Positions 13,012-37,202 of a stretch of DNA of 38,115 nucleotides are shown in pieces. The stretch comes from Clostridia bacterium. GTDB lineage: Bacteria; Bacillota; Peptococcia; DRI-13; SM3-B62. The position numbers and the translations under genes are program-made. The number at the start of each line of letters is the position of its first letter. The first letter of the stretch is position 1. Location: contig JAHDSQ010000051.1 in NCBI GenBank assembly GCA_018432615.1, forward strand, positions 1 to 38,115, read 5' to 3'. The notes under the pieces were generated by a model. That model did no database searches. It saw only the letters and a list, made by a program, of their open reading frames with translations, and had not been told where the DNA came from.

Positions 13012-13137
13012 TTTTATTCCTCCTCTTATTATATATATGGGGTAAGGCTCAAACCTGCTAAAGTATGTTAATACGAATGATGATTTCCGGGTGGATATCA
13101 CTACAAATACTTATTGGACGTGAAAGGGGAGATTGTT

Positions 13138-14826
13138 TTGCCGAGAAGAAGCGTTAGCAGAGAACAAATGATTACAGTGAATTACCGTGGGAAATCATTT
13201 AAGGTGACAGCGGGAGTAACTTTTTTGTCGCTTGTCGAGCGTTTGTCTGATGGGGGCTTATCGCCTATCGTTGCCGTAAGATACAACAATGAATTGTTGG
13301 GATTGCATGAAGAAGTGAAAGAGTCCGGCAACTTGGAATTTTTGGATTTAACAACAGAGGATGGTTTGAGGGTATATCGCCAGAGCCTGGTCATGCTTTT
13401 GACAAAGGCTGTTTTTGAGGCGTTCCCACGCTATAGGGTTATCGTGAGGCATTCCATGGGTAAAAGCTATTACTGTGAAATAGAAGGACTTCAGTCCATG
13501 CCGGCTTTAGAGATTGTTGCCTTGGAAGCAAAAATGCGCGAGTTGGTGAAAGAAAATATTTCAATTGTTCCTCAATTATTACCAAAAGAAGAGGCTAAAA
13601 AGCTGCTGAAGCAGTCCGGCCATGATGATACCGTCGAACTATTGCATGAATTGGACCTAGAGAATGTAACCCTGTACTCTGCCGGTTCGTATTCTTACTA
13701 TTCCCACATTGTTTTGGCCGCCGGGACAGGGGCTTTAGGTGTGTTTAAGCTTGAATTGTATCAGAATGGCTTCTTACTGCGTTTTCCTGCTGCAGACGAT
13801 CCGTCAGTTGTTGCGCCCTGCCTTTACCTGCCTAAGTTGGGGCAAATATGGAATGAATCTGCAAAATGGGCAGAAATCCTAGGCGTTTGCAACATGTCTG
13901 GACTCCTAAGCAAACTGGGAAACGATACCAACGGAGGGAGAGAGCTTATTCATGTGAATGAAGCCTTGCATGAGAAAAAAATTGCACAAATAGCCGATGT
14001 TATTTATGCCCACCGCGACAGGCTTCGCCTTATCTTGATTGCAGGCCCTTCCTCGTCGGGAAAAACCACCTTTGCTCAGAGACTGGCCATACAACTGCGC
14101 GTTTTAGGGTTAAAGCCGGTGGCCCTCTCCACAGACGACTATTTTGTCGATCGTGACCTAACCCCGTTGGACGAAAAAGGAGAGTACGATTTTGAAGCGT
14201 TAGAAACCGTGGATGTTACTCTTTTCAACGAACATTTGCAAAGGCTGATGGCTTCCGAAGAAGTAGAGTGCCCCTTTTTTAATTTTCAAAGGGGTGTACG
14301 GGAAAAGGGCGGACAAAAGTTGCAGGTGGAGGAGAATAATCCAATAATTATCGAGGGAATTCATGCCCTGAACGAAAAACTAACGCCGTCCGTTCGGCGC
14401 GAGAATAAGTATAAGATCTATATCAGCGCCTTAACACAGCTTCTCATTGATGACAGTAACCGCATTAAAACTACCGATACTCGTCTTCTGCGGCGTATTG
14501 TCAGAGACAAGAACTATCGTTCCCAGAACGCGCTGGATACTCTAAAACGCTGGCAGTCTGTGCGGCGCGGTGAGGAAAAAAACATTTTTCCATATCAGGA
14601 AGATGCGGATATTATGTTCAATTCCGCCTTGGTATATGAGATTCCCGTTCTGAAAAAATACGCCTATCCGCTGCTGAAAGCAATTGACCGAAACGAGAGC
14701 GAATATTCAGATGCCAAGCGGTTATTAGATTTGATTGCCATGTTCCCGGAGTTATCCCCTGAGGCTGTTCCCCTTAATTCTATTATGCGGGAATTTATTG
14801 GTGGCAGTTCAATCCACAAAAACTAA
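13138..14826 (+). CDS. Nucleoside (uridine) kinase with N-terminal TGS and tRNA-synthetase-like domains
   Basis: 562 residues from a TTG at 13138. AAGGGGAG at 13124-13131 lies 6 nt upstream of it, which beats the TTG at 13114. The N-terminus (about residues 10-75) is a TGS-like ubiquitin fold. The middle resembles the second additional domain of threonyl-tRNA synthetase. The C-terminal half is a P-loop kinase of the uridine kinase/phosphoribulokinase family: Walker A GPSSSGKTT (about 303-311), STDDYFVDR and IIEGIHALNE. It would phosphorylate a nucleoside, probably uridine or cytidine. The TGS fusion is a known Firmicute arrangement whose purpose is unsettled. It is monocistronic here. Confidence 0.88.
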   Translation: MPRRSVSREQMITVNYRGKSFKVTAGVTFLSLVERLSDGGLSPIVAVRYNNELLGLHEEVKESGNLEFLDLTTEDGLRVYRQSLVMLLTKAVFEAFPRYRVIVRHSMGKSYYCEIEGLQSMPALEIVALEAKMRELVKENISIVPQLLPKEEAKKLLKQSGHDDTVELLHELDLENVTLYSAGSYSYYSHIVLAAGTGALGVFKLELYQNGFLLRFPAADDPSVVAPCLYLPKLGQIWNESAKWAEILGVCNMSGLLSKLGNDTNGGRELIHVNEALHEKKIAQIADVIYAHRDRLRLILIAGPSSSGKTTFAQRLAIQLRVLGLKPVALSTDDYFVDRDLTPLDEKGEYDFEALETVDVTLFNEHLQRLMASEEVECPFFNFQRGVREKGGQKLQVEENNPIIIEGIHALNEKLTPSVRRENKYKIYISALTQLLIDDSNRIKTTDTRLLRRIVRDKNYRSQNALDTLKRWQSVRRGEEKNIFPYQEDADIMFNSALVYEIPVLKKYAYPLLKAIDRNESEYSDAKRLLDLIAMFPELSPEAVPLNSIMREFIGGSSIHKN

Positions 14827-14954
14827 AGAATTGTCGAAACACGTGTAAAAAGACTATATTAAGCTAAATAGAATGGGTTTATCATGGACATGGTCAGTGG
14901 AGGGCGATATAATAGGAAATGGAGTAAATATATATAAAGGGAGATGGTTAAAAG

Positions 14955-16463
14955 ATGGCTCGAGATCAATGGGGCACTAGGGTAGGCTTTATCCTTGCCG
15001 CTATAGGCTCCGCAATCGGACTGGGGAACATCTGACGATTTCCGTATGCATGTGCATCAAATGGAGGCGGTGCGTTTCTAATTCCTTATTTCTTTGCAAT
15101 TATAACTGCAGGTATTCCCATTATGATTTTGGAATTCACTATTGGGCATAAGTTTAGGGCAGGAGCTCCCGTGGCCTTTGCAAAAATGAATAAAAAATGG
15201 GAATGGCTGGGATGGTTCCAGGCTGCGGTTGCCTTCTTTATTACCGTGTATTATGTGGCTGTCGTTGCCTGGTCGTTAAGCTATATATTCTTTGCTTTTA
15301 CTCAGGCTTGGGGCGCTGATACCAGCGGGTTCTTTTTCGGTGAATATCTGGGATTAAGCGATGGGCCCTTACAGTTGGGAGGATTCCAATGGAAGGTGCT
15401 TATCCCGCTTTTGTTTGTATGGGTTTTGAACTTTTCTATCCTTTCTAAGGGTGTTAAAAGCGGGATCGAGAGAGCCAACAAGTTTCTGATTCCCGCATTG
15501 GTGGTGTTGGTTGGTATTATCGGGATTCGTGGTCTTACTCTGCCCGGAGCTGTCGACGGTTTAAATTATCTTTTTACCCCGGACTGGTCACAGATTGCCA
15601 ATCCTAAGGTATGGGTCGCTGCTTACGGACAGGTCTTTTTCAGTTTGAGTATCGCCTTTGCGATTATGATCGCCTACTCCAGCTATTTGCCGGAAAAGAC
15701 GGATATAGTCAACAACGCATTTATTACAGCCTTCAGTAACCATGGATTTTCACTTTTTGCCGCGTTTGGTGTTTTCAGCATTCTGGGTTATATGGCTCAG
15801 GCACAGGGGGTTCCCGTGGAGGAAGTAGCTACTGCGGGTGTAGGTCTTGCCTTTGTTGTGTTCCCGCAGGCCATCAGTACTTTGCCGGCTATGCAAGGAG
15901 TCATCGGGGCGGTTTTCTTCGGTACCTTATTGTTTGCGGGACTGTCCTCCAGCATGTCGATCATCGAGGCTTTTCTGGCGGGGGTCAGGGACAAGTTTGA
16001 TATGCCCAGACAGAAGGCACTTAACATTTGTTGCGGCGTTGCGTTTGTTATCAGTCTCTTATTTGCAACAAAGGCCGGGTTATATCTTTTGGATATTGTT
16101 GACTACTTTATTAACAATATGGGTATTGTTATCGGTGGCTTGATTGAGGTTATTCTAATCGGTTGGTTCTTTAACCTTGAAGACCTCAGACAACATGCCA
16201 ACAAGAACTCCGATTTTACGGTCGGTGGATGGTGGAATGTTATGATTAAGTTTGTAACTCCCCTGGTTCTTGGTGTTATGGTAATCATGACCATTATAGA
16301 AAATATCAGAGTGCCTTACGAAGGGTATTCATCCACTGCCTTGCTTATTTTTGGGTGGGGAGTCGTGATTGCTTGCTTTGTTCTTGGAATCATTTTCTCT
16401 AACCTGAAAAGCAAAAACAATGTGATGCTACAGCCTAATGAGGAGGTAAGCAAAGATGAATAG
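14955..16463 (+). pseudogene. MetP-like NSS sodium symporter interrupted by in-frame TGA
   Basis: From ATG 14955 (AAGGGAG at 14937-14943) the frame reads MARDQWGTRVGFILAAIGSA, then IGLGNI-stop-RFPYACASNGGGAFLIPYF. The TGA (15033-15035) replaces the nearly invariant Trp of GNxWRFPY in the sodium-binding first helix of neurotransmitter:sodium symporters. The following 475 codons are open and family-like to the stop at 16461-16463. ATG 15123 is only an internal Met; starting there would lose helix 1 and destroy sodium and substrate binding. The full protein would be about 502 residues, normal for the family. An intact metS overlaps its end, implying methionine/alanine-type uptake. It is most simply a recent G-to-A nonsense change. 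Readthrough or recoding is not excluded. Confidence 0.85.
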
Positions 16464-16551
16464 CGGCGCGATTATCATGATGGTTGTCGGATGCGGTTTT
16501 TTGTGGGGTGGCTTGGCCGTTTGTCTTAACATAGCGATGAAGAAGAAATAG
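16456..16551 (+). CDS. metS: MetS-type small subunit of the NSS transporter
   Basis: 31 residues, starting MNSGAIIMMVVGCGFLWGGL and ending in three lysines. It is a single hydrophobic helix with a positive C-terminus, matching the tiny MetS subunits that follow MetP-type methionine/alanine symporters. AGGAGG at 16441-16446 lies inside the end of the transporter gene, and the start overlaps the transporter stop by 8 nt, so translation is coupled. In characterised systems the small subunit is needed for uptake. It appears intact although the transporter carries a premature TGA. It is shorter than most gene finders report. Confidence 0.85.
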   Translation: MNSGAIIMMVVGCGFLWGGLAVCLNIAMKKK

Positions 16552-16559
16552 CATAGTTA

Positions 16560-16594
16560 ATAGTCCCGGGTTTATCCCGGGACTATAATTTTTT
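16560..16594 (+). terminator. Intrinsic terminator after metS
   Basis: A perfect 11-bp stem, ATAGTCCCGGG (16560-16570) with CCCGGGACTAT (16576-16586), has a 5-nt loop and is followed by AATTTTTT. This is a strong rho-independent terminator. Confidence 0.92.
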
Positions 16595-16817: not shown

Positions 16818-18803
16818 GTGGTTGATATTTCCGTTAACATTGCGCCGATAACTAGGAAAGAGAAGATCACTTTGGACGATGAATGGTTTAGTTTTATCCA
16901 AACCGGGAAAGAACCACATTACATTCGTTCCAATATTTTGGCATCTTGGAAAAGGTGTAGGGCTTGGGGAATCGATCCCTATTTAAGGAAAACAAATAAG
17001 GTCATGGAAGGCGAGAAATTACAGCAAAGGCTTAGGGAGAAATATCCTTTGCTGCAAGTTGTTAAACCTTATATGCAGAACATTTACAATATAGTTGAAG
17101 GTTCGGGATTTATCATTTTCCTTTCCGACAATGATGCAACTGTCCTACACGTGGTGGGGGAAGAGAAGGTTCTGGAGGAATATAAATCAGATTCTAATTT
17201 TCAAGTGGGGGCAAACTGGAGTGAAGACTGTGTCGGAACAACGGCTGTGAATATGGTTTTAAAAGAAGAAAGGCCTATTCAAATCTCGGGTAAGGAACAC
17301 TACTGTTATGAGCAAAGGAAATGGACTTGCTCGGGAGTCCCGATTAAGGATGCTTCCGGGAAGCCGCTTGCTGTCTTGAGTATGGCGGGAAGGAGCGAAC
17401 AGTTTCACCTGCATACTTTAGGAATGCTTGTGGCGGCTGAAATGGCCATCGAGAATCAGCTGCAGGTCATGGAGGCTTCCGAAAAGATGATGCTTACCGC
17501 TCGCTATCATCGTGCGGTAATGGACGCGGTGACAGAAGGGATTTTGTCGATTGATCGCAACGGGATTATTACATACATGAATAAAAGTGCCAGCAAGATT
17601 TTACTGTATGACGCAAAGAAGGCTATCGGCAAACATGTCACTGAAATCGTAGATTTCCGACCTGTTATTCTTGATGTTTTAAACGCAGGCAAAGGTTATA
17701 AGAATAAAGAGTTTATCATAAACTCAAAGAGAGGCAGACTACATTTCGTGAAGAGCGCCATCCCCATAGTGGATGAAAACGGAGAGATTGACGGAGTTGT
17801 AGACGTATTCCGAGAAATCAAGGAAATAAAGAGCTTGGTTAACCAGATGGTTGGTGCCCAAGCCCAATTTGATTTGACCGATATTGTTGGGGAAAGCAAA
17901 GAAATACTCGAGGCCAAGCGACAAGCAGTAACCGCTGCACATTGTTTTTCCAATGTGCTATTAATGGGAGAGAGCGGAACGGGAAAGGAGCTTTTTGCCC
18001 AGGCGATCCACAACGAAAGCAGTCGTGCCTGCGGTCCATTTATTGCGGTCAATTGCGGTGCCGTACCTCGGGATCTGATAGAGGCAGAATTTTTTGGTTA
18101 CGAAGAGGGTGCATTTACCGGCGCGCGACAGGGTGGACGTCCGGGTAAGTTCGAGATGGCCGCCGGTGGAACTATTTTTCTGGATGAAATAGGGGAAATG
18201 CCTATTGATATGCAGGTTAAACTCTTAAGGGTATTGCAAGAAAAAAGGGTAACGAGAGTAGGGGGAAATAAAACAATACCTGTTGACGTTCGGGTAATAG
18301 CCGCTACCAATAAGCAACTGAGAAGGGAAATGGAAGAGGGCACGTTTCGCAAAGATCTTTTTTGGAGGCTCAATGTTATAACGATAAATATCCCCCCTTT
18401 ACATCAAAGAAAGGGAGATGTTCTCCTTTTAGCCGGATACTTTTTGAGAAAGTATGTTAAGGAAGACGGAGTATGCAGACTGGACGAAAAGACATCCGAA
18501 ATCCTGGAGAACTACAGTTGGCCGGGGAATGTCCGGGAATTGGAAAATGCGTTAGAACGAGCCGTTATTTTTGCTGAGAATCAAGTGATTCTTCCCGAGC
18601 ACCTACCTAAAAATATACTTAATAATCATAAGAAAAGAATAAGCATGTACTATCATTTCGGTACTTTAAAACAGGTCGAAGAGGAGGCAATTCGTGAAGT
18701 ACTGGAATTTTGCAGGGGTAATATCAGTCAAGCAGCAAATTTATTGGGAATAGCGCGCAACACCTTGTATTGCAAAATGAGAAATTATGGTATTAAGTGT
18801 TAG
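16818..18803 (+). CDS. AcoR-like sigma-54-dependent activator (system 1)
   Basis: 661 residues. The N-terminal region has SWKRCRAWGIDP, the AcoR/DhaR-type opening, then a GAF-like sensor (about 85-215) with GANWSEDCVGTTA and HYCYEQRKWTCSGVPI. A PAS domain covers about 230-335. The AAA+ domain has Walker A GESGTGKE (384-391), the sigma-54 contact loop GAFTGA (431-436) and the Walker B region GGTIFLDEIGEM. A Fis-type helix-turn-helix ends the protein (NISQAANLLGIARNTLYCKM). It should open the -24/-12 promoter at 18954 in response to a small ligand. The GTG at 16818 has GGGAG 6 nt upstream; an ATT at 16827 is better spaced from AGGAGG (16813-16818), so the exact start is uncertain. Confidence 0.92.
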   Translation: MVDISVNIAPITRKEKITLDDEWFSFIQTGKEPHYIRSNILASWKRCRAWGIDPYLRKTNKVMEGEKLQQRLREKYPLLQVVKPYMQNIYNIVEGSGFIIFLSDNDATVLHVVGEEKVLEEYKSDSNFQVGANWSEDCVGTTAVNMVLKEERPIQISGKEHYCYEQRKWTCSGVPIKDASGKPLAVLSMAGRSEQFHLHTLGMLVAAEMAIENQLQVMEASEKMMLTARYHRAVMDAVTEGILSIDRNGIITYMNKSASKILLYDAKKAIGKHVTEIVDFRPVILDVLNAGKGYKNKEFIINSKRGRLHFVKSAIPIVDENGEIDGVVDVFREIKEIKSLVNQMVGAQAQFDLTDIVGESKEILEAKRQAVTAAHCFSNVLLMGESGTGKELFAQAIHNESSRACGPFIAVNCGAVPRDLIEAEFFGYEEGAFTGARQGGRPGKFEMAAGGTIFLDEIGEMPIDMQVKLLRVLQEKRVTRVGGNKTIPVDVRVIAATNKQLRREMEEGTFRKDLFWRLNVITINIPPLHQRKGDVLLLAGYFLRKYVKEDGVCRLDEKTSEILENYSWPGNVRELENALERAVIFAENQVILPEHLPKNILNNHKKRISMYYHFGTLKQVEEEAIREVLEFCRGNISQAANLLGIARNTLYCKMRNYGIKC

Positions 18804-22176: not shown

Positions 22177-23142
22177 ATGGATAAACTCAATAGCAAGGTA
22201 GTTAAGTACTTTTACACTACTATGATTCGCATTAGAAAGTTTGAAGAAACAATTAATGAATATTTTCTCAAAGGGGAAATACCTGGCTTTGTGCACCTCT
22301 ATATAGGTGAAGAAGCCATCGGAACAGGGGTGTGTGCTAACCTGCGTGATACCGATTTCATCACCAGTACCCACCGTGGACATGGACACACCATTGCCAA
22401 AGGTGCAAAAGTCAAATACATGATGGCGGAAATATTTGGTAAAAGGACCGGTTACTGCAAAGGAAAAGGCGGATCGATGCATATTGCCGATTTCAGTGTC
22501 GGAATGTTGGGAGCCAACGGAGTTGTTGGTGGAGGCTATACCCTGGCGACAGGTGCTGCCTTAGCCAGTAAACTGCAAAACAAAGATAATGTCTCGGTGT
22601 GCTTTTTCAGTGATGGAGCTTCCAACAGAGGTACTTTTCATGAGGCTATTAACATGGCTGCAGCTTGGAAATTACCGGCGATTTTTGTTTGCGAAAATAA
22701 TCAGTGGGCCTCTACGACTCCGTACCGGACGACAACCGCAATTGAAAACATTGCGGATCGGGCCATAGGTTACGGTATTCCGGGAGTAATAGTAGATGGC
22801 AATGATGTATTTGAGGTATACAAAGAGGCCGAAAAGGCAGTGGATAGAGCTAGGTCAGGTGGGGGACCGACTTTGATTGAAGCCAAGACGTATCGGATTA
22901 AAGGACATTTTGTAGGAGACCCCGAAATGTACCGCACCAAAGAAGAAGTAAAGAAAGTAATGGAAGAAAATGATCCGATAGCGCGGTTCAAGGAAAAAGC
23001 AACGGAAAAAGGTCTCATGACTGAAAAAGAAATGCAGGAAATAGATAAAAAGATTGAAAAGGAAATCAACGAAGCACTTAAATTTGCCAGTGAAAGTCCA
23101 AGTCCCGAGCCTGAAGAATTATATCAGGACTTATACGTATAA
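22177..23142 (+). CDS. acoA: Acetoin-dehydrogenase-like E1 alpha (system 1)
   Basis: 321 residues of the thiamine-diphosphate-dependent E1 alpha family, closest in style to AcoA. Shared signatures are GFVHLYIGEEA, STHRGHGHTIAKG and GYCKGKGGSMHIAD. The TPP/magnesium motif reads SDGASN (145-150) and ends ENN (173-175); most relatives have GDG, so a Ser replaces the first Gly. The N-terminus is short, as in AcoA and unlike large pyruvate dehydrogenase subunits. It pairs with the beta subunit 14 bp downstream, cleaves a 2-oxo acid or diketone-like substrate and passes the acyl group to lipoamide. Acetoin is the usual substrate of the family; the TRAP transporter upstream raises the possibility of a carboxylate instead. 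Confidence 0.85.
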   Translation: MDKLNSKVVKYFYTTMIRIRKFEETINEYFLKGEIPGFVHLYIGEEAIGTGVCANLRDTDFITSTHRGHGHTIAKGAKVKYMMAEIFGKRTGYCKGKGGSMHIADFSVGMLGANGVVGGGYTLATGAALASKLQNKDNVSVCFFSDGASNRGTFHEAINMAAAWKLPAIFVCENNQWASTTPYRTTTAIENIADRAIGYGIPGVIVDGNDVFEVYKEAEKAVDRARSGGGPTLIEAKTYRIKGHFVGDPEMYRTKEEVKKVMEENDPIARFKEKATEKGLMTEKEMQEIDKKIEKEINEALKFASESPSPEPEELYQDLYV

Positions 23143-23156
23143 AGGAGGAACAGCAA

Positions 23157-24131
23157 ATGCGTGAAATAAGTTTTTCAGAAGCAACCTTAGAGGCAATGAA
23201 GGAAGAAATGGAACGTGATGAAAAAGTCTTTATCATGGGTGAAGATATAGCCCGGCAAGGAGGAATCTTCGGCCAATTTAGGGGTTTGCCGCAGTTGTTT
23301 GGAACAGAGAGGGTGAGGGACACACCTATTACCGAGACAGCCATTGTCGGTGCCGGTGTTGGAGCAGCAATGGCTGGCATGCGTCCTGTTGTTGACATGC
23401 ACTTCGCCGATTTTCTTGGTGTGGCCATGGACGAAGTATTCAATCAAATGGCCAAGATCCGTTACATGTTTGGTGGACAAACAACGATGCCCCTGGTATT
23501 AAGAGCACCGGATGGTATTGCGCGTTCTGCGGCAGCACAGCATTCCCAAAGCATTGAAGCGTGGTTTTTACACGTACCGGGACTTAAGGTGGTAATACCT
23601 TCAAATCCTGCAGATGCCAAGGGTCTTCTCAAATCCGCCATCAGGGATGATAACCCCGTAATATATTTCGAGCACAAAGGGCTTTTCCCCATGAAGGGGA
23701 AAGTTCCTGATGGTGAACATTTTGTGCCGATCGGTAAAGCGGATGTGGCTAAAGAAGGAACAGATTTGACCATAGTTTCCTATTCGTTGATGATGAACAG
23801 GGTGAAGGAAGCAGGGAAAATATTAGAGGATAAAGGAATCAAGGCAGAGCTGATAGACCTGCGTACAATATCCCCTATTGACAAGGAGACCATCTTTGAA
23901 TCTTTGGCAAAAACAAAGAAACTGATGGTTGTTCATGAGGCCGTGAAGATTGGTGGAGTTGGTGCTGAAATAGCGGCTATGGCTGCCGAGGAAATGCTGG
24001 ATTATTTGGATGCTCCCATAAAAAGATTGGGTGCTCCATTTGTACCGGTACCTTTCAGTCCGGCTTTAGAGAAACTTGTTAAGATACAGACTGATGATAT
24101 CGTACAGGCCGCTGAAGAACTTTGTCGCTAG
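23157..24131 (+). CDS. acoB: Acetoin-dehydrogenase-like E1 beta (system 1)
   Basis: 324 residues, transketolase-type pyrimidine-binding domain plus C-terminal domain. Features are FIMGEDIARQGGIFGQF, TPITETAIVGAGVGAAMAGMRP, RAPDGIARSAAAQHSQS (with the catalytic-site histidine) and LIDLRTISPIDKETI. AAAGGAGGA precedes the ATG by about 6 nt. It forms the alpha2beta2 E1 with the preceding gene. Its paralogue in system 2 is at 30640-31614. Confidence 0.88.
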   Translation: MREISFSEATLEAMKEEMERDEKVFIMGEDIARQGGIFGQFRGLPQLFGTERVRDTPITETAIVGAGVGAAMAGMRPVVDMHFADFLGVAMDEVFNQMAKIRYMFGGQTTMPLVLRAPDGIARSAAAQHSQSIEAWFLHVPGLKVVIPSNPADAKGLLKSAIRDDNPVIYFEHKGLFPMKGKVPDGEHFVPIGKADVAKEGTDLTIVSYSLMMNRVKEAGKILEDKGIKAELIDLRTISPIDKETIFESLAKTKKLMVVHEAVKIGGVGAEIAAMAAEEMLDYLDAPIKRLGAPFVPVPFSPALEKLVKIQTDDIVQAAEELCR

Positions 24132-24150
24132 GAGGAGGGAAAGGAAATAA

Positions 24151-25473
24151 ATGGCAACTAATATTGTAATGCCTCAATTGGGGCTGACGATGACAGAAGG
24201 AACAATAATGAAGTGGTATAAAAAGGAAGGGGATCAGGTCAAAACAGGGGAAGTGCTGGCGGAAATCGCAACCGACAAAATAACTAATGAGCTGGAAGCC
24301 CCTGAGGACGGAGTGCTGTTGAAGATAACAGCAGAGGAAGGCCAATGTGTGGCTGTTAAAGCCACCATAGCTGTGATTGGTGCTGCCGGTGAAAGTGTAT
24401 CGCAGGAAGAGCCGGTAGAGGGAAAAGTTCAGAATGAAGTGGAAGATTCCCCTCAACGTGCTGAGACTGCTGCTCCGGAAAAAGAAACCACTAAGGCAAG
24501 GACGAATGCGGGTGAGTGGATCAAGGCCTCACCGGCAGCCCGCAAGCTTGCAAGAGACAAAGGTATAGAGCTTGCGGATATTGTAGGAACAGGACCGGGT
24601 GGCCGGATAGTGGAAAGAGACGTTCTGTCGTGCGAAGAAAAGGGTGCAAGCAGTGTAACTGCTACTCCCTTGGCTAGAAAGACAGCCAAGGAGTACGGTT
24701 TGAAGTTAGAGGAAATAGCGAAGGAAGGCAGAATAACCGAGGAAGACGTACTTGCTGCGGTAAGAAGAAGTATGCCTTCAGCCGAAACGGGGGCCGGAGA
24801 AGGTCAGGTTGTGGCGTTGACACCAATTCGGAAGGTTATTGCCCAGAGGATGAGTGAAAGCTGGAATACGGCTCCTCATGTGACCTTGAGTGTAGACGTG
24901 GATATGACTATGGCCGGAAAACTTAAAGATAACCTGCAAAAGGCCACAGAAAAGAAATACTCCTACACAGAAATAATCGTCAAGTGTGTGGCTCAGGCTC
25001 TACAGGATTACGAGGAAGTGAATGCCAGTTGGACCGCCGAAGGCATCAAGAAGCATAAAAACGTCAATGTTGGTGTTGCCGTCGCGATAGATAGCGGACT
25101 GGTTGTGCCTGTAATTAGGGATGCTCAAAGGAAGAACATCAGCAGCATCAAGGAAGATCTGGCAACAATTGTGGAAAGAGCACGTAGCGGGAATATGTTG
25201 CCCGATGATATGCAGGGCGGCACATTTACCGTAACTAACCTAGGGATGTTTGGGGTGGATCATTTTACACCTATCATCAATCCTCCTGAGAGTGCTATCC
25301 TTGGAGTATGCAGGATAGTGAAGAAACCGGTGGTTATAGGGGAGAATATTGAAATACGCCCAATCATGACACTTTGTCTTTCCTTTGACCATCGTATGAT
25401 TGACGGTGCTCTGGCTGCGAAGTTCATGCAAAGGGTACGGCAGTACCTGGAAGAACCGATGTTGTTGATATAA
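24151..25473 (+). CDS. acoC: Dihydrolipoamide acyltransferase E2 with two peripheral-subunit-binding domains (system 1)
   Basis: 440 residues. The lipoyl domain covers 1-78, with the lipoylated Lys 43 in EIATDKITNE. After an acidic linker come two E3-binding-like domains: about 124-160 (SPAARKLARDKGIELADIVG, then GGRI) and about 169-205 (TPLARKTAKEYGLKLEEI, then EGRI). The catalytic domain (about 220-440) ends in the active-site DHRMIDG (His about 414). It moves the acyl group from lipoamide to CoA. Having two binding domains is unusual; the system 2 E2 has one. An extra domain could bind E3 and E1 separately, or help supply E3 to both complexes. Confidence 0.88.
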   Translation: MATNIVMPQLGLTMTEGTIMKWYKKEGDQVKTGEVLAEIATDKITNELEAPEDGVLLKITAEEGQCVAVKATIAVIGAAGESVSQEEPVEGKVQNEVEDSPQRAETAAPEKETTKARTNAGEWIKASPAARKLARDKGIELADIVGTGPGGRIVERDVLSCEEKGASSVTATPLARKTAKEYGLKLEEIAKEGRITEEDVLAAVRRSMPSAETGAGEGQVVALTPIRKVIAQRMSESWNTAPHVTLSVDVDMTMAGKLKDNLQKATEKKYSYTEIIVKCVAQALQDYEEVNASWTAEGIKKHKNVNVGVAVAIDSGLVVPVIRDAQRKNISSIKEDLATIVERARSGNMLPDDMQGGTFTVTNLGMFGVDHFTPIINPPESAILGVCRIVKKPVVIGENIEIRPIMTLCLSFDHRMIDGALAAKFMQRVRQYLEEPMLLI

Positions 25474-25500
25474 CCGGGTCATATTAAGGAGGGAACACTG

Positions 25501-26895
25501 TTGCAGAAAACGATAATTGTTATAGGCGGAGGACCGGGTGGATACGTAGCGGCTATTCGCGCGGCTCAATTAGGAGCAAAAGTGCATCTTATCGAAAAGG
25601 GAAACCTAGGAGGAACCTGTCTTAATGTGGGCTGTATTCCCACCAAAGCACTGCTTCATACGGTTGAACTTTATGAAGCTGTGAAATCAGCATCCCCGAT
25701 CGGACTCAAGGTCGAAAAATGCAGTATTGATTGGTCTGGCTTACAAAAGCATAGACAGGTGGTTGTGGATCGCTTAGTCGGTGGCGTAAAAGGCTTGTTA
25801 AAAGCTAACGGTGTCGAGGTGCACCAGGGAGAAGGAGTCCTGAAAGATAAAAACACGGTTTCGGTCGTTGGGGCTGCTAGTAAAGAGCTTCCTGCCGACT
25901 ATATAGTACTTGCCTTAGGTTCAAGCCCCGTTAAGTTGAACTTCCCGGGTTCCGAACTGCCGGGAGTGATATACAGCGCGGCTGCCTTAAGCTTGGAGAA
26001 GATTCCCGCCTCAATGGTAATCGTCGGAGGAGGGGTAATCGGTATAGAGTTGGCGGCTCTTTACAACTCAGTAGGTTGTAAGGTTACGGTTGTCGAAATG
26101 CTACCGGAGATTTTACCCCCCGTAGACAGTGAGTTGGCGATTCAGGTGCGGGAAGAATTGAGCCAAAGAGGCGTTACGTTCATGAATGAAGCCAAGCTGA
26201 CCGAGGCGGTGCGTGGGCAAAACGGGTTAATCGCCAAAGTGGAAAAGGCGGGGAAAGTACATGAGCTTGAGGCCGAAAAAATACTGATGGCAGTGGGGCG
26301 CAGGGCAAATTCGACAGGTGCCGGTTTGGAAAAACTGGGGATAGCAACGGAAAGAGGAAGGATCAAAGTGAATAGTTTATTTGCCACCAATATCCCCAAC
26401 ATTTACGCAATCGGCGATTGCAACGGAGAGTTGATGTTGGCTCATGCCGCTTCAGCTCAGGGAGTCGCGGCTGTTGAGCATGCCCTCGGTCATGAACCTG
26501 CGTATTATCGCCAGACGGTACCGTCCTGTATCTACATACAGCCGGAAGTGGCCGGGGTAGGCATGACGGAAGACGAATTGAAAAAGAAAAACATACCTTA
26601 CAAGGTGGGGAGATTTCCTCTGGCGGGTAACGGAAAATCTGTCATTGAGAACAATGGCAAAGGCCAGATAAAGATCCTTGCAGGAGCCAAGTATGAAGAG
26701 ATTCTTGGTGTTCATATGATAGGACCGCGGGTTACAGATCTGATTGCCGAAGCTGCAATGGCAATCAGGCTGGAAGCAACTGTAGATGAATTGATTTCAA
26801 CAGTACACGCCCATCCCACAGTCAGTGAAGCGGTAGCCGAAGCTGCCTTGGCCGTGAATAATCAAACCATACATTGGCCACCGACAGCCAGGTAA
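25501..26895 (+). CDS. lpdA: Dihydrolipoamide dehydrogenase E3
   Basis: 464 residues. The FAD-binding motif is VIGGGPGGYVAAIRAAQLGA, the redox disulfide is GGTCLNVGCIPTKA, the NAD-binding motif is IVGGGVIGIELAALYN and the C-terminal active-site motif is HAHPTVSEA. It reoxidises dihydrolipoamide and makes NADH. The TTG start at 25501 follows GGAGGG (25490-25495). It is the last gene of system 1. There is no second E3 in system 2, so this protein probably serves both. A strong terminator follows. Confidence 0.93.
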   Translation: MQKTIIVIGGGPGGYVAAIRAAQLGAKVHLIEKGNLGGTCLNVGCIPTKALLHTVELYEAVKSASPIGLKVEKCSIDWSGLQKHRQVVVDRLVGGVKGLLKANGVEVHQGEGVLKDKNTVSVVGAASKELPADYIVLALGSSPVKLNFPGSELPGVIYSAAALSLEKIPASMVIVGGGVIGIELAALYNSVGCKVTVVEMLPEILPPVDSELAIQVREELSQRGVTFMNEAKLTEAVRGQNGLIAKVEKAGKVHELEAEKILMAVGRRANSTGAGLEKLGIATERGRIKVNSLFATNIPNIYAIGDCNGELMLAHAASAQGVAAVEHALGHEPAYYRQTVPSCIYIQPEVAGVGMTEDELKKKNIPYKVGRFPLAGNGKSVIENNGKGQIKILAGAKYEEILGVHMIGPRVTDLIAEAAMAIRLEATVDELISTVHAHPTVSEAVAEAALAVNNQTIHWPPTAR

Positions 26896-27061: not shown

Positions 27062-28993
27062 ATGGCTGCGGGACACAATTTCTTTGAACACTGGAGCCAC
27101 AGCCACGCAATGGTTATTAAAGAGTCCTGGGACAGGAGCTATACTGCCAAGGTCAGGCAGGAAGACGGGCGCTGCAGGAATATCTTGGAGGGCAGCGAGA
27201 TTAAGAGGGTATTGGAGGAAAAGCATAGTCTGCTCGAAACTGCCAAGCCGGTAATGAAAGATACTTATGATTGGGTAAAAAACTCCGGTTGTTTGCTGGT
27301 GCTGACGGATGAAAACTGTCGGGTTATCGAAAGCTTTGGAGACCGGGAAATCATCGATAATGCGAGAAGAATTAATTTTATTCGTGGTGCAAGCTGGCTG
27401 GAGGAGGACGTAGGAACCAATGCTATCGGTACGGCAGTCCGTATCGAAAAACCGATTCAGGTTAACGGGGAAGAACACTATTGTCAAAAACACCAGTTAT
27501 GGACCTGTACGGCTTCACCCGTCTTTGACGACAGCGGCAAAATCGTAGGGATAATTGATATCTCAGGACCTTCCGGTAGCTTTCATCCTCATTCCTTAGC
27601 TTTGGTGACAGTGCTTGCTAAAACAATTACCATGCAATATCAGACCATGAGACTCACTCGCAGTCATTACTTGATCAACAAACGGATATCCAGTGTATTC
27701 GAAAGAATGTCCGACGGCTTAATTGAATTAGATGAAAATGATCGTGTTATCAGTATCAATCCGGTGGTTAGGGAGATACTGGGCAGGCATGAGAATGAAA
27801 TAATGGGGCAAAGACTGCAGGAACTGTTAAAAACGGAAGATGTTCTAACGAAAAATTATACCGAAAATTTCGGAAATATCACTATTAAGGACAAAAAATC
27901 CCAAAAGTACCAAGTTATTGGGGAAAGGCTTGACAACAGTAGCTATGAAAGGGGAGGCGGTCTCGTTATCTTAAAGAGGCTCAGCGAAACGAAAAGGCAA
28001 TATAAAGGCTTTTCAACCCAAAACGAACTATATAATTTCATAGATATAATCGGAGAAAGCAAGGAACTGACGGAAGCGAAGCTTAAGGCGTGTTCGGCTG
28101 CCCAAAGCAAGGCTAATATCTTGCTATTGGGAGAAAGCGGTACAGGGAAAGAGCTTTTTGCACAATCCATTCACAAAAACAGCCTGCGGCAGAAGGGTCC
28201 GTTCGTGCCGGTCAATTGCGGCGCTATACCGCGAGAATTATTGACAAGCGAACTTTTTGGCCATGATGAAGGAGCTTTTACCGGAGCTTGCAGGGGTGGA
28301 AAAGCCGGCAAATTTGAACAAGCCGAGGGAGGAACCCTCCTGCTTGATGAAATAGGGGAGCTGCCAAATGAGCAGCAGGTAGCCTTGCTTCGTGTGATCC
28401 AAGAAAAAAAGGTCACTCGTTTGGGAAGTAATAGGACAATTCCGGTTGATGTGCGGATAATTTGTGCCACTAACAAGGATCTTGCCGTGGAAACAGCCAG
28501 AGGCCATTTCAGACAAGACCTTTACTATCGTCTCAATGTGCTGAAAATATATATCCCTGCTCTCAGAGAACGCAGGAGCGATATCCCTTTGCTTTTTCAT
28601 CACTTTCTGGAGAAATTCGAGGCTCAGTACGGGAGAAAGATGCAAATAGACGAAGAAGTGTTGCCATATCTGCATGAGTACGATTGGCCGGGGAATGTCA
28701 GGGAACTGCAAAATGTGGTGGAAAGGCTTGTTTGCTTAGCTGAGGACAGGGAAATCACGGTAGCGGATTTGCCCGAGGAAATCAAGCATGCTGCAGGGAC
28801 AGAGGGAAAGGAATATCATGGGGATTTAAAGAGCAGAATAGAACGGAAAGAAGTTACGGCCAAGGAAGAGAAGAAAAAAATAGTAGTCTGCCTGAATAAA
28901 AACGGAGGTAATGTCAGTCAGACGGCAAAAGAAATGGGGATTTCACGCAATACACTTTATCGGAAAATGAAGGCTTATCAGATTAAAAATTAA
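27062..28993 (+). CDS. AcoR-like sigma-54-dependent activator (system 2)
   Basis: 643 residues, paralogous to the protein at 16818-18803. A GAF-like sensor (about 60-195) holds GASWLEEDVGTNAIGTA and EEHYCQKHQLWTCTASPV, and a PAS-like region covers about 205-310. The AAA+ domain has Walker A GESGTGKE (357-364), GAFTGA (404-409) and GGTLLLDEIGEL. The helix-turn-helix at the end is NVSQTAKEMGISRNTLYRKM. The N-terminal SWxRC motif of classic AcoR is altered to ESWDRSY. It lies directly before the second -24/-12 promoter and should control the second dehydrogenase operon. The sensor sequence differs clearly from the first activator, so the two probably answer different ligands. Confidence 0.92.
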   Translation: MAAGHNFFEHWSHSHAMVIKESWDRSYTAKVRQEDGRCRNILEGSEIKRVLEEKHSLLETAKPVMKDTYDWVKNSGCLLVLTDENCRVIESFGDREIIDNARRINFIRGASWLEEDVGTNAIGTAVRIEKPIQVNGEEHYCQKHQLWTCTASPVFDDSGKIVGIIDISGPSGSFHPHSLALVTVLAKTITMQYQTMRLTRSHYLINKRISSVFERMSDGLIELDENDRVISINPVVREILGRHENEIMGQRLQELLKTEDVLTKNYTENFGNITIKDKKSQKYQVIGERLDNSSYERGGGLVILKRLSETKRQYKGFSTQNELYNFIDIIGESKELTEAKLKACSAAQSKANILLLGESGTGKELFAQSIHKNSLRQKGPFVPVNCGAIPRELLTSELFGHDEGAFTGACRGGKAGKFEQAEGGTLLLDEIGELPNEQQVALLRVIQEKKVTRLGSNRTIPVDVRIICATNKDLAVETARGHFRQDLYYRLNVLKIYIPALRERRSDIPLLFHHFLEKFEAQYGRKMQIDEEVLPYLHEYDWPGNVRELQNVVERLVCLAEDREITVADLPEEIKHAAGTEGKEYHGDLKSRIERKEVTAKEEKKKIVVCLNKNGGNVSQTAKEMGISRNTLYRKMKAYQIKN

Positions 28994-29608: not shown

Positions 29609-29650
29609 GCATAAGGTGTGTGGAGTATTAACAAAAGGAGGAGCGAAGAG

Positions 29651-30613
29651 ATGGAAGTTACAAAGGAGACATTATTAGGCTTTTATGAAACCATGGTTAC
29701 CATCAGGACCTTTGAAGAAAAGGCGATGGAATTGTTTGCCGCAGGATATATTCCGGGTTTTGTGCATTTGTATATAGGGGAAGAAGCGGTAGCAACAGGG
29801 GTTTGTGCCAATCTAACGGAAAGAGACTTTATTACCAGTACCCACCGGGGGCACGGACACCTCATCGCCAAGGGCGGCAAAATAGACCTGATGATGGCGG
29901 AACTAATGGGAAAGGTTACGGGATATTGCAAGGGCAAGGGAGGGTCCATGCACATTGCTGATGTTGACTTAGGGATCTTGGGAGCGAACGGTATTGTCGG
30001 AGCGGGACAACCGATAGCGGCAGGTGCGGCTTTTGCCTGCAAATATAAAAAACAGGATAATGTTTGCGTCTGCTTTTTCGGTGACGGCGCTTCTAACCGG
30101 GGAACTTTTCACGAGGCTCTTAACTTAGCTTCAATTTTCAAACTGCCCGTGATATACGTGTGTGAGAACAACCTTTACGGGATATCAAATTGTCAAAGAG
30201 ACCATATGAATGTCAGCGATATTTCCGACCGAGCCGCCTCTTACGGAATACCGGGGGTATCGGTGGACGGCAATGATGTTATGGCTGTATATGAGGCAGC
30301 CGCTGAAGCAGTCAAGAGGGCCAGAAAGGGTGAAGGCCCCAGCATGATTGAATGCAAGACCTGGAGGCATCGCGGTCATTTCGAGGGAGACCCTGGAATA
30401 TATAAGAACGCTAAGGAACAGGAAGCCTGGATCAAAAAAGATCCTATCATAAAGCTGGAGAAGAAGCTTGTAGAATATGAATACGCCGCCGAAGATGAGC
30501 TTAACGCGATAAAAGATGCGGCGAAAGAAAGAATAGAAGCTGCCGTCGAGTTTGCCAAAAACAGTCCCGATCCTGAGCCGGAAGACGTTCTGAGGGATGT
30601 ATACGCCGATTAA
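29651..30613 (+). CDS. acoA: Acetoin-dehydrogenase-like E1 alpha (system 2)
   Basis: 320 residues, paralogue of the gene at 22177. It has GFVHLYIGEEA, STHRGHGHLIAKGG, GYCKGKGGSMHIAD and the complete TPP motif GDGASN (144-149) ending in ENN. ATG 29651 follows AAGGAGG (29634-29640); the upstream in-frame start at 29618 has no such site. It makes E1 with the next gene. The full GDG motif contrasts with the SDG of system 1. The substrate may be acetoin or a related diketone or 2-oxo acid. Confidence 0.87.
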   Translation: MEVTKETLLGFYETMVTIRTFEEKAMELFAAGYIPGFVHLYIGEEAVATGVCANLTERDFITSTHRGHGHLIAKGGKIDLMMAELMGKVTGYCKGKGGSMHIADVDLGILGANGIVGAGQPIAAGAAFACKYKKQDNVCVCFFGDGASNRGTFHEALNLASIFKLPVIYVCENNLYGISNCQRDHMNVSDISDRAASYGIPGVSVDGNDVMAVYEAAAEAVKRARKGEGPSMIECKTWRHRGHFEGDPGIYKNAKEQEAWIKKDPIIKLEKKLVEYEYAAEDELNAIKDAAKERIEAAVEFAKNSPDPEPEDVLRDVYAD

Positions 30614-30639
30614 TATTACTATAAGAAAGGGTGAGAAGA

Positions 30640-31614
30640 ATGAAAACAATGACGTATGTTGAGGCCTTAAGGGACGGTATGCGTTTTGAAATGAACAAAG
30701 ACCCTAATGTTTATCTAGCCGGAGAAGATGTTGGTATTTTTGGAGGCTGTTTCGGTCAGACGGCGGGTTTGTATCAGGAATTCGGCCCGGAGCGAGTTAT
30801 AGACACCCCTATCACCGAGACGGCAATAATCGGTCATGCTGTCGGCGCGGCGGCCAGCGGTCTGCGTCCGATAGTAGAAATAATGTTCATAGACTTTACA
30901 GGTGTTTGTATGGATGAAATCCTTAACCAGGCAACGAAAATGAGATACATGTTTGGGGGTAAGGCTAAGGTTCCCATGGTAATCAGGACGCCGTGTGGCG
31001 CGGGCGTAGGGGCTGCGGCACAGCATTCGCAAAGCCTGGAGGCATTTTTCACCCATATCCCCGGTATCAAGGTAGTTATGCCGTCTGTGGCTGCAGATGC
31101 CAGGGGTTTAATGATAGCTGCCATCCGCGACGACAACCCGGTAATGTATATAGAGCATAAAGGGTTGTTAGGGGTAGAAGGCGAGGTGCCGGAAGGGGAT
31201 GTGGTCGTTCCCCTGGGTAAGGCCGATATTAAAAAGGAAGGTTCGGATGTAACAATAGTAGCTTGGTCGGCGATGGTCGGGAAAGCCATGAATGCTGCCG
31301 CTTCTTTGGAAAAAGAAGGAATCAGCGCGGAGGTACTGGATCCACGCACCTTGAAACCCCTGGATATTGACAGTATTCTGAGTTCGGTAGCCAAGACCGG
31401 TAAGCTGGTTATCGTCCATGAGGCTAATAAAACAGGAGGATTTGGCGGGGAAATAGCCGCCCTGGTTGCGGATCAGGGCTTTGACTATCTTAATGCTCCT
31501 ATTAAGCGCGTTACAGCTCCTGATTCGCCTGTGCCCTTCAGTCCTGTGCTGGAGAAGGCTTATGTGCCCGGTGAGGAAAAAATCATTGCGGCAGTTAAAG
31601 AACTGTTTGCTTAG
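30640..31614 (+). CDS. acoB: Acetoin-dehydrogenase-like E1 beta (system 2)
   Basis: 324 residues. Features are YLAGEDVGIFGGCFGQT, TPITETAIIGHAVGAAASGLRP, RTPCGAGVGAAAQHSQS and VLDPRTLKPLDIDSI. ATG 30640 is preferred to the GTG at 30631 because AAAGGGTGAG lies at 30626-30635 and the family usually begins MKTMTYVEAL. In the region where system 1 has DGIARSAA, this copy has CGAGVGAA, closer to AcoB of acetoin dehydrogenases. It is the partner of the preceding E1 alpha. Confidence 0.88.
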   Translation: MKTMTYVEALRDGMRFEMNKDPNVYLAGEDVGIFGGCFGQTAGLYQEFGPERVIDTPITETAIIGHAVGAAASGLRPIVEIMFIDFTGVCMDEILNQATKMRYMFGGKAKVPMVIRTPCGAGVGAAAQHSQSLEAFFTHIPGIKVVMPSVAADARGLMIAAIRDDNPVMYIEHKGLLGVEGEVPEGDVVVPLGKADIKKEGSDVTIVAWSAMVGKAMNAAASLEKEGISAEVLDPRTLKPLDIDSILSSVAKTGKLVIVHEANKTGGFGGEIAALVADQGFDYLNAPIKRVTAPDSPVPFSPVLEKAYVPGEEKIIAAVKELFA

Positions 31615-31635
31615 GGAATAACGAGGGAGGCAGAG

Positions 31636-32637
31636 ATGGCAACGGTAGGGATTATTGCAAACCCGGCTTCAGGCAAGGACATTAGGAGACTGGTGTCTTA
31701 TGGTACAGTATTCGACAATCAGGAGAAGGTCAATATTGTCCGGAGGATCATACTGGGCTTATCAGCGGTGGGAGTCGCCAGGATACTATATATGCCGGAT
31801 TATTACGGTATTGTTCCTCAAGCTCTGGACGGCCTGAAACAAGAGGATAAAGTTTCGCTTGAAGTGGAAAGGGCCGATATCGAGCTGACCGCTGATCAGC
31901 AGGATTCCTTGAATGCAGCAATATTTATGCGAGAAAGCGGTGTGGGCTGTATTGTAACCCTGGGAGGAGACGGTACTAACCGAATGGTGGCTAAAGGCTG
32001 TGGCAATATCCCTCTTTTGCCGGTATCGACCGGAACTAATAATGTGTTCCCTGGGATGATTGAGGGAACAGTGGCAGGAATGGCGGCGGGGGTTGTGGCT
32101 TTGGGAATTGCCGATGGCCCCCCTGCGGTGATGCCTTCAAAGAAGCTGGTAATATATAAAAATGGGCAACCGGTTGATATTGCCTTAATTGATGCCGTAA
32201 CTTTGCGCGATAGGTTTGTAGGAGCCAGAGCGATTTGGGAGACGGAACGATTGCTGCAGGCGGTTGTTACCAGGGGAGAACCGCACAATATCGGCATTGC
32301 TTCGGTAGTAGGAAATATTGAGCCTGTGATTCCTGAGAGTGATGAGGGGATGGCCCTGGAGTTTGGCGGCGAAGGAAGGTCCGTTTTATCACCCATTGCC
32401 CCCGGTTTGATAGTGAAGGTAGGAGTTAAGGGGCACAAAAAAATCATGATTGGTGATGAGGTGAGAATAATCCGTAAACCCTGTATTATCGCCTTAGATG
32501 GGGAACGGGAGGTAGAGGTGAAGGAAGACGAAGAGGCCTGCATTAAACTTACCTTCGACGGTCCCAGGGTTGTGGACGTGAGAGGCGTCTTGCATGAAAG
32601 GGTCAAAAAATGGGCCGGAGAAAGATCAGAGGGGTGA
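31636..32637 (+). CDS. acoX: AcoX-like protein, NAD-kinase fold
   Basis: 333 residues of the ATP-NAD kinase/AcoX group. VGIIANPASGKDIRRLVS and TLGGDGTNRMVAKG are the nucleotide-binding motifs, and PVSTGTNNVFP follows as in NAD and diacylglycerol kinases. The C-terminal half is the beta-rich domain of this group. AcoX genes sit in acetoin catabolic operons of several bacteria, yet the reaction is not established. Its position between E1 beta and E2 strengthens assignment of this operon to the acetoin type. System 1 has no AcoX. GGGAGG precedes the ATG by 9 nt. Confidence 0.85.
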   Translation: MATVGIIANPASGKDIRRLVSYGTVFDNQEKVNIVRRIILGLSAVGVARILYMPDYYGIVPQALDGLKQEDKVSLEVERADIELTADQQDSLNAAIFMRESGVGCIVTLGGDGTNRMVAKGCGNIPLLPVSTGTNNVFPGMIEGTVAGMAAGVVALGIADGPPAVMPSKKLVIYKNGQPVDIALIDAVTLRDRFVGARAIWETERLLQAVVTRGEPHNIGIASVVGNIEPVIPESDEGMALEFGGEGRSVLSPIAPGLIVKVGVKGHKKIMIGDEVRIIRKPCIIALDGEREVEVKEDEEACIKLTFDGPRVVDVRGVLHERVKKWAGERSEG

Positions 32638-32644
32638 AGGATTA

Positions 32645-33841
32645 ATGTCATTTAAGATAACAATGCCAAAAATGGGCTTAACGATGAGTAAAGGAACATT
32701 GGGTAAATGGCTAAAAAAAGAAGGGGATAAAGTAAAAAAGGGTGAGGAGATTTTGGAGGTAACAACCGACAAAATTGCCAACATGGTCGAAGCTCCCTCC
32801 GAAGGGGTGCTCCTGAAAATCCTGGTAAAGGAAGGTGAAGAAGTTCCTATAGGCTTCACTCTGGGAGTTATCGGTGAACCGGGGGAGGAAATTGATTTAT
32901 TGACAGAAGTCCCCCAGGTTGTGCAGGAAACTGCACAAGAGTCTATTCAAAGTAACGAATCCCCCGAAAAAAGAAATGAGTATTCCGAAGAGAGAATAAA
33001 AATAACACCGGCAGCCAGGAAAATAGCCCGTGAAAAAGGAATTGACTACAAAGGCGTAAAAGGAACAGGCCCGGGAGGGCGTATTACCAGAGAAGACATT
33101 GAGAAAGTTACAGCTAACGAGATTACAGCGAAGACAGAGCAAGAGGCACCGGGCGTGCTGGAAACCATCCCTTATACAGGTATGCGCAGGAGTATCGGCG
33201 AGAACATGCTCGACAGCTGGGGTTCGATACCAAAGGTAACGCATCATGTAAGTGTTGATGCAGCAAATCTCATAGCCTTCAGGAGAATGCTCAATGAAGA
33301 TAGTGATGAGCATGAGAAAATATCCTTGACCGATATATTGGTTAAAATTGCCGCCAAGGCTCTGGAAATGAGGCCGAAGGTTAACATTGTTCTGGCAGAA
33401 AATCTGATTAAGGTCATGGGGAATATTAACATTGGAGTAGCCGTAGCTTTGGAAAACGGCTTAGTTGTTCCCGTCATTAAAGATGCCAATAAAAAGAGTC
33501 TTTCAAGGGTCAGCAGAGAAATTAAGGAATTAGCAGATAAGGCCCGAGGGAATAAAATCGAAAGGGAAGACATCAGCGGTGGTACATTTACCATCACCAA
33601 TTTAGGAGCATACGGTTCTGTCGATTGGTTTACTCCGATCATCAACCGACCGGAATCTTCAATCTTGGGTATTGGCAGGATAGTTGAGAAACCGGCCATA
33701 ATAGAGGGACAGTTGCTAAATCGTCCCACCCTGGGTCTTTCTTTTGCCTTTGACCATAGGGTGTTGGACGGAGCACCGGCGGCGGAATTTTTGGCTGTTA
33801 TCCTGAAGCTGATCGATTCACCGGCCAAAGCTCTGATTTAA
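32645..33841 (+). CDS. acoC: Dihydrolipoamide acyltransferase E2 (system 2)
   Basis: 398 residues. The N-terminal lipoyl domain carries Lys 43 in EVTTDKIANM. A single E3-binding domain follows (ITPAARKIAREKGIDYKG, then GPGGRI, about 117-155). The catalytic domain ends with DHRVLDG (His about 371). An upstream in-frame start at 32594 lies inside acoX and is rejected; the ATG at 32645 follows GAGGGGTGAAGG just past the acoX stop. No E3 gene follows, so lipoamide must be reoxidised by an E3 from elsewhere, most likely the one at 25501. Confidence 0.9.
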   Translation: MSFKITMPKMGLTMSKGTLGKWLKKEGDKVKKGEEILEVTTDKIANMVEAPSEGVLLKILVKEGEEVPIGFTLGVIGEPGEEIDLLTEVPQVVQETAQESIQSNESPEKRNEYSEERIKITPAARKIAREKGIDYKGVKGTGPGGRITREDIEKVTANEITAKTEQEAPGVLETIPYTGMRRSIGENMLDSWGSIPKVTHHVSVDAANLIAFRRMLNEDSDEHEKISLTDILVKIAAKALEMRPKVNIVLAENLIKVMGNINIGVAVALENGLVVPVIKDANKKSLSRVSREIKELADKARGNKIEREDISGGTFTITNLGAYGSVDWFTPIINRPESSILGIGRIVEKPAIIEGQLLNRPTLGLSFAFDHRVLDGAPAAEFLAVILKLIDSPAKALI

Positions 33842-35402: not shown

Positions 35403-36149
35403 ATGGCATTAAGGGTCGTAATAGCCGAAGATGAGGAATTATTGAGAAGGCAAATTGTGAAAATAGTATCTTCGTTTGAAGATTTCGAAGTGGTTGCCTC
35501 ATGCGAGACGGGAGCGGAGTTCCTCAAGACGATTAAAAGAATCAAGCATGAGATTGCCCTTGTTGATATTTTCATGCCCGGGATGACAGGGATAGAAGTA
35601 GTCAAAGCAGTCAGGGACAGCCTGCCTGAGACGGAATTTATCTTCATTACGGCACACGAGGAATTCATCAGAGATGCCGTAGAACTCTATGCGGCTGATT
35701 ATATCCAGAAACCTTTCGACGAGGAGAGGTTGATTAAAACATTGAATAGGCTGAGAAAAAGACTGATCATCGGCGAGAAGTCTGTTGAGTTCAAGGTAGG
35801 GAAAGAGATGGCAATGGTGCGTGAACGGGATCTCTACTTTGTCGAAGCCTTTTACAAAAAGACGAAAGTCTATACGGAAGATGATGAATTTGTTTCAGAC
35901 TACACCCTTGGACAGGTCGAGGAAATATTGGATATGGACAGGTTCTTTAAAACAAGCCGCTCGTTTCTTGTCAATGTCAATAAGGTCAATATCATCAGAC
36001 CTTATAACAGGAGCTCTTATGAGGTGATATTCAAGAATAAGAATTACAGTGCTTTTTTGTCGAAATGGAGATATGAAGATTTTCGTGCAAGAATTAAGGC
36101 AAAAAATGCGGCGAAGGAAGAGATAGTCTCAACAAACAAAGAAATTTGA
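35403..36149 (+). CDS. LytTR-family response regulator
   Basis: 248 residues. The receiver domain (1-120) has the acidic pair EDEE, the phospho-acceptor Asp in ALVDIFMPGMTG, Thr in FITAHEE and Lys in IQKPFDEER. The LytTR DNA-binding domain (about 130-235) has FKVGKEMAMVRERDLYFVEA, FFKTSRSFLVNVNKVNII and the final YEVIFKNKNYSAFLS. This is the layout of AgrA/LytR proteins that regulate autolysis, peptide signalling or surface properties. GGGAG precedes the ATG at 35403. It is followed by the small membrane-protein array, its probable target or signalling partners. The matching histidine kinase is not in the window. Confidence 0.92.
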   Translation: MALRVVIAEDEELLRRQIVKIVSSFEDFEVVASCETGAEFLKTIKRIKHEIALVDIFMPGMTGIEVVKAVRDSLPETEFIFITAHEEFIRDAVELYAADYIQKPFDEERLIKTLNRLRKRLIIGEKSVEFKVGKEMAMVRERDLYFVEAFYKKTKVYTEDDEFVSDYTLGQVEEILDMDRFFKTSRSFLVNVNKVNIIRPYNRSSYEVIFKNKNYSAFLSKWRYEDFRARIKAKNAAKEEIVSTNKEI

Positions 36150-36190: not shown

Positions 36191-36664
36191 ATGAGGGTAT
36201 TGAATATCTATCAGGTATTGATGTATTCAATTCCTGAGGCGATCGTGGTAACAACCATTGCTTTCGCTTTGGCCGGAGCAAAGTTGCAGTGGAGGAAGGT
36301 TCTTTTAGTAGCAATTCCAACATCATTGATAACAGTGACTCTTCGTCCGTATCTAAGCAGTATATCGGTAAATAACATTCTGTATTATTCTCTTTTGGCT
36401 TTAATGCTTTATATTACTAAAACTGCAGGGTTTCTTGAAAGTTTTGCAAGTGCAGGTTTGACCGGCGGTATTTATCTTATGAATGAGATTATTTACTTTC
36501 TAGCATTGGAAGCTTTTTTTGGAATAGATTTTGACGCCGTATTTGCCGATGGGAAAAGAGCATATCTCATATTCTTAATAGAATTCACAATAGTAACTTT
36601 GATTTCTGTATTTCTCAACAAAAGAAAAATATCGATTTTCCCGAAAAACAAGGAGGTATCATGA
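36191..36664 (+). CDS. Small polytopic membrane protein, array copy 1
   Basis: 157 residues with about five hydrophobic helices. It begins MRVLNIYQVLMYSIPEAIVV, then has the conserved ALAGAKLQWRKVLLVAIPTS and TLRPYLSS. The last part is FLNKRKISIFP, a short basic cytoplasmic end. The YSIPEA...G.KL.W.K..L...P pattern recalls, from memory, the N-terminal membrane sensor of some clostridial GHKL histidine kinases, but no kinase domain is attached. GGAAGGAAGGTGAATA precedes the ATG, and nearly the same sequence precedes copy 3. Its stop overlaps copy 2 by 4 nt. Function is unknown; a signal-sensing or kinase-modulating membrane partner of the LytTR system is plausible. Confidence 0.7.
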   Translation: MRVLNIYQVLMYSIPEAIVVTTIAFALAGAKLQWRKVLLVAIPTSLITVTLRPYLSSISVNNILYYSLLALMLYITKTAGFLESFASAGLTGGIYLMNEIIYFLALEAFFGIDFDAVFADGKRAYLIFLIEFTIVTLISVFLNKRKISIFPKNKEVS

Positions 36665-37158
36665 TAAAGTTAACCTTATTGCAAACTTTGATCTATTCAA
36701 TCCCGGAAGCCATTGTATTTACTACGATGATTTTTCCCCTGGCCGGAGCGGAGCTTAAGTGGAAAAAGGTAATCTTGGTAGCAGTACCGGCAGCGTTGAT
36801 TATTGTGCAACTAAGACCTCATCTTGGAAGCATGATGATGAATGCATTTGTTTACTACGTTCTACTTATTATTTTACTTCGTTTAAACAAAGTAGCGGGA
36901 TTGATTGAAAGTATTGCGGGGACAATCCTGGCGGGAGCGTTTTATTGTGCGTTGGAAAACATCAACATAAGGATGCATTGCGTATTTTTCGGAATCAATT
37001 ACGAGTCAGTTCTTACGGATGAAAGAATAAGGTACATTACTTTTTTAACACAGCTTGCGGTAGTAATAATCTTTTCCGTATTTCTTAACAAACGGAAGGT
37101 ATCGATCTTTTCGAAGAAAGATTTAGCAGAACAGGGGGATGATAACAAAAAATGCTGA
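36661..37158 (+). CDS. Small polytopic membrane protein, array copy 2
   Basis: 165 residues, diverged paralogue of copy 1. It shows MIKLTLLQTLIYSIPEAIVF, PLAGAELKWKKVILVAVPAA, LRPHLGS and the ending FLNKRKVSIFSKKDLAEQGD. About five membrane helices are expected. It starts within the end of copy 1 (ATGA overlap), so the two are translated together. The longer tail DLAEQGDDNKK is shared with copy 3 but absent from copy 1. No enzyme motif is seen. Confidence 0.7.
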   Translation: MIKLTLLQTLIYSIPEAIVFTTMIFPLAGAELKWKKVILVAVPAALIIVQLRPHLGSMMMNAFVYYVLLIILLRLNKVAGLIESIAGTILAGAFYCALENINIRMHCVFFGINYESVLTDERIRYITFLTQLAVVIIFSVFLNKRKVSIFSKKDLAEQGDDNKKC

Positions 37159-37202
37159 TGGTTTTGGAAAGTTCCCATGAAAATAAGGAAAGAAGGTGAA
37201 TA

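Follow-up and report, generated by a model that had tools for sequence, protein, structure and literature searches.

Among the closest described counterparts of the locus reported here is the MetP/MetS methionine-alanine importer of Corynebacterium glutamicum, an NSS-family system in which the gene of an SNF-family large subunit overlaps that of a MetS_like_NSS small subunit placed after it. The family also includes solved transporters such as MhsT (PDB 4us3 and related). In a stretch of 38,115 nucleotides from a Clostridia bacterium (contig JAHDSQ010000051.1; hereafter the window), we found the same order of a large and an overlapping small subunit. Unlike in C. glutamicum, however, the large subunit is broken by a TGA at codon 27, and the 31-aa small subunit stays far under the cut-off of the methionine/alanine-specific equivalog NF033494 (20.4 bits, cut-off 70). 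The premature stop likewise sets the gene apart from MhsT and the other solved NSS transporters, to which its product is similar in sequence over residues 2-442 (E 1.1e-62 for chain 4us3_A, MhsT). The interruption is probably a recent single G to A change (TGG to TGA), giving a nonsense allele in a metP-like gene for a Na+/amino-acid symporter that is normal in other respects.

The symporter frame runs from an ATG at 14955 to a TAG at 16461-16463 and is 502 residues long, with the TGA as its sole internal stop, positioned within the GNxWRFPY motif (GLGNI*RFPY). When the TGA is read as Trp, the product scores 402 bits against the Pfam family PF00209 (SNF; cut-off 27), which places it in the SNF/NSS family. 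The 3' end of the frame overlaps the metS-like gene by 8 bases, and the product of the latter scores 54.6 bits against the NCBIfam model NF033493 (MetS_like_NSS; cut-off 25), which marks it as a MetS-like small subunit, as in MetPS-type importers. An earlier note on this DNA, made from the letters alone, had described a frame that is good on both sides of one TGA and an intact overlapping metS; both descriptions stand, the frame being open at every codon except the 27th and the small gene being whole. Both hexamers of the predicted promoter are identical in the sister species, and a search of the window for RNA families found none. Within the genome the interrupted gene is the only SNF gene (n=1), so that an SNF backup copy is absent, and no MetQ-type lipoprotein was found. 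The immediate upstream neighbour of the operon (13114-14826) encodes a uridine-kinase-like protein, the N-terminal region of which bears a weak resemblance to threonyl-tRNA synthetase.

Table 1. Features of the interrupted metPS-like operon, in window coordinates
Feature	Position	Strand	Remarks
Sigma-70-like promoter (TGGACA-17-TATAAT) for the metPS-like operon	14885..14913	+	consensus scan, 11/12; predicted function
SNF/NSS-family Na+-dependent amino-acid symporter gene (metP-like)	14955..16463	+	502 codons and a stop; broken at codon 27
Premature in-frame TGA, codon 27	15033..15035	+	TGG (Trp) in every relative examined
Weak hairpin of the earlier note	15036..15069	+	-10.6 kcal/mol, z = -0.10; not credible as SECIS
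metS-like small-subunit gene, 31 aa, intact	16456..16551	+	own GAGGAGG Shine-Dalgarno; nearly identical in sister species
Rho-independent terminator-like hairpin, operon end	16560..16586	+	

Downstream of the operon, the window carries acetoin-dehydrogenase-like genes (E1 alpha, E1 beta, E2) in two separate clusters, one at 22177-26895, which also holds an E3-like gene, and one at 29618-33841. A sigma-54 activator-like gene lies upstream of each cluster (16818-18803 and 27062-28993, respectively); the genes of these clusters were named from their translations, with a Pfam check on the first activator (16818-18803) only. Further along, a response-regulator-like gene (35403-36149) is followed by three tandem copies of a gene for a small membrane protein (36191-37709; ~157-168 aa), each starting with a similar ...YSIPEAIV... 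segment.

Codon 27 was compared across relatives of increasing distance. The sister species (G001), which was the only other genome of the same genus in the comparison, carries the symporter at 96% amino-acid identity and in the same gene order, with TGG at codon 27. TGG (Trp) was found in 33/33 homologous loci covering the codon, at identities from 96% down to 30% (two of these loci, L004 and L005, are one gene). An exact degenerate-DNA search for TGA within the motif among 46 genomes of the class returned the present genome only, and the same pattern gave the same result among 398 genomes of the phylum, 158 of which contain a match to the protein. The earlier note had read the change as a replacement of Trp and had proposed that TGG in all relatives would reduce the case to an error or a strain-specific mutation. 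The residue is Trp throughout, and it is to this outcome that the sister, the homologs and the phylum search all point. Broken copies of related symporters do occur elsewhere in the phylum (L070, L075, L076), with a single TGA at position 348 in G083, stops plus a frame break in G136, and a frame break in G161; as the breaks lie at unrelated positions, it is nothing out of the ordinary for this family to have an isolated broken member.

Between the symporter and its sister ortholog there are 114 synonymous and 20 non-synonymous differences, which gives a dN/dS of 0.042 (0.041 downstream of the TGA), inside the range of 13 neighbour genes (0.018-0.19). Such a low value is indicative that the TGA is very young, or that the real DNA lacks it, or that it is suppressed effectively; loss of constraint over any large share of the branch should have left many more amino-acid changes, and an older pseudogene was rejected, since dN/dS shows no relaxation. 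As a rough upper limit, obtained from a simple Poisson argument with the background rate and the split of changes assumed, the gene could have been a pseudogene for ~2-10% of the branch, the spread being set by the number of changes assigned to the present lineage. The sister was compared over the window and over 56 kb of a sister contig, both syntenic, and among ~53 orthologous genes (~20,600 residues) the TGA at codon 27 is the sole internal premature stop. Stop differences elsewhere are few and lie <=17 codons from a start or <=6 from an end.

Conceivably, the TGA could be decoded as an amino acid. A reassignment of TGA to Trp throughout the organism would explain why the codon sits at a Trp position, but the one tRNA-Trp of the genome has the anticodon CCA, and 118 Trp codons in the 36 listed window genes are TGG. 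As 9/36 of these genes end in TGA, it is an ordinary stop in the window. Among the tRNAs typed by ARAGORN (nearly all of 47 matches; a weak match at C59:29292-29375 was left out), none other than tRNA-Sec has a UCA anticodon, which counts against reassignment and for which reason a suppressor tRNA was rejected as well. General TGA-to-Trp reassignment is thus excluded, as had been argued beforehand from the use of TGA as a normal stop. Selenocysteine is not to be dismissed for want of machinery, since the search for sel genes advised at the outset, which covered selB, selC and selD, recovered tRNA-Sec (selC, 71.9 bits), selB and also a selD (L092, G000:C8:38669-39589) that has an in-frame TGA where Sec usually stands, in the classic motif KAAG*AAK, followed by a 7-bp hairpin with the loop CGGGU. 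The organism uses selenocysteine, and the TGA-containing selD means that it makes at least one likely selenoprotein. Against Sec at codon 27, however, Cys was found at 0/33 homologous loci, no related genome in the class or phylum searches shares the TGA, and this site is not a redox centre in symporters. The rules for a bacterial SECIS ask for a G in loop positions 1-2 and a loop 16-37 nt from the UGA (PMC13188914), together with a minimum free energy of <= -7.5 kcal/mol. The weak hairpin pointed out in the earlier note does appear in the minimum-free-energy fold, with its loop 14 nt past the TGA as described, but this spacing and the loop AUGU, without G at positions 1-2, break two of the rules. 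Its strength is that of chance, as it folds no better than shuffled sequence, and the predicted fold of the sister differs. A second weak hairpin (15062-15080) has the G at the loop start and a spacing within 16-37 nt, which favours Sec, but it contains several G-U pairs and reaches just -5.6 kcal/mol, and of the Trp/Cys codons in the window 8% are accompanied by a hairpin at least as good. Scored alone by the same crude measure, the hairpin of selD itself is also weak (-4.6 kcal/mol), so that folding energy alone does not discriminate and the comparative evidence decides. Selenocysteine at codon 27, disfavoured from the beginning, therefore appears very unlikely from sequence comparison and was rejected despite the machinery, the homologs being uniformly Trp, the TGA unshared and the hairpins unspecific.

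Functional leaky decoding, in which the normal tRNA-Trp misreads UGA enough to give a useful amount of wild-type symporter while the TGA is tolerated or sets a low dose, is improbable, although several observations agree with it. Among the stop codons of E. coli, readthrough is easiest at TGA, and the amino acid then inserted is most often Trp (PMC11126739). As the residue lost here is Trp, a readthrough product would be wild type, and selection on the symporter shows no visible relaxation. Nevertheless, the TGA is confined to one genome, so that conservation gives no argument for selection on readthrough, and a very recent change explains the data equally. That ordinary tRNA-Trp decodes the UGA often enough for a functional symporter, with the stop acting as a translational volume control, we consider slightly less probable again. 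A wrong consensus base, whether from sequencing (an error that the earlier note had allowed for), assembly or strain mixture, would mean that the real gene has TGG; this is a serious possibility, though less probable than a mutation. It would agree with the lack of decay outside codon 27, with the intact promoter, metS and terminator, with the conserved and single-copy nature of the gene and with the draft state of the genome (70 contigs, estimated contamination 3.36%), and a base-calling or consensus error fits equally well as a mutation. On the other side, the assembly looks clean, given that neither a frameshift nor a further internal premature stop occurs in the ~53 compared genes, and G-to-A transitions are frequent among real mutations. 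General assembly trouble in the window was rejected because the other orthologs are clean.

A recent nonsense change is favoured, as it had been in the earlier note, because TGG stands in the sister and in every homologous locus, the low dN/dS shows purifying selection up to recent times, the stop is the only internal one in the compared genes, tRNA-Trp carries CCA with UCA in tRNA-Sec only, and isolated broken copies of the family exist elsewhere. The sister comparison, the tRNA set and the lack of the TGA elsewhere together indicate a private single-base change. We counted against the nonsense allele that the promoter, metS and the codons past the TGA are all intact and that neither an SNF backup nor a MetQ-type lipoprotein was found. 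If the nonsense allele is accepted and the base is, as we presume, real, ribosomes stopping at codon 27 would release a 26-residue peptide ending inside the first transmembrane helix, and a restart at 15123, where the frame has its next ATG, would yield a protein lacking this helix. In LeuT-fold transporters, the first helix holds sodium- and substrate-site residues. As a truncated or restarted product would be without the helix bearing them, the allele is most likely null or nearly so, and the symporter has presumably lost its function. A functional short protein from a restart at 15123 was rejected, given the missing first helix and no evident Shine-Dalgarno. The normal tRNA-Trp may misread UGA at a low level and so yield traces of a protein identical to the wild type. 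Should the base be real, the one SNF-family symporter of the strain was probably lost very recently.

In essence, the finding is of an ordinary kind, and it serves mainly as a caution that a lone TGA can mimic recoding when the frame around it is perfect and the genome uses selenocysteine. Bacterial selenoprotein genes have in common with this locus the in-frame TGA and the Sec-using genome, whereas here the homologs have Trp and not Cys, a convincing bSECIS is absent and the TGA is not conserved. Recent nonsense alleles and young pseudogenes in bacteria share with it the one substitution, the otherwise intact frame and the relatives without the change; the sole difference is that the residue lost here coincides with the residue usual at a leaky UGA.
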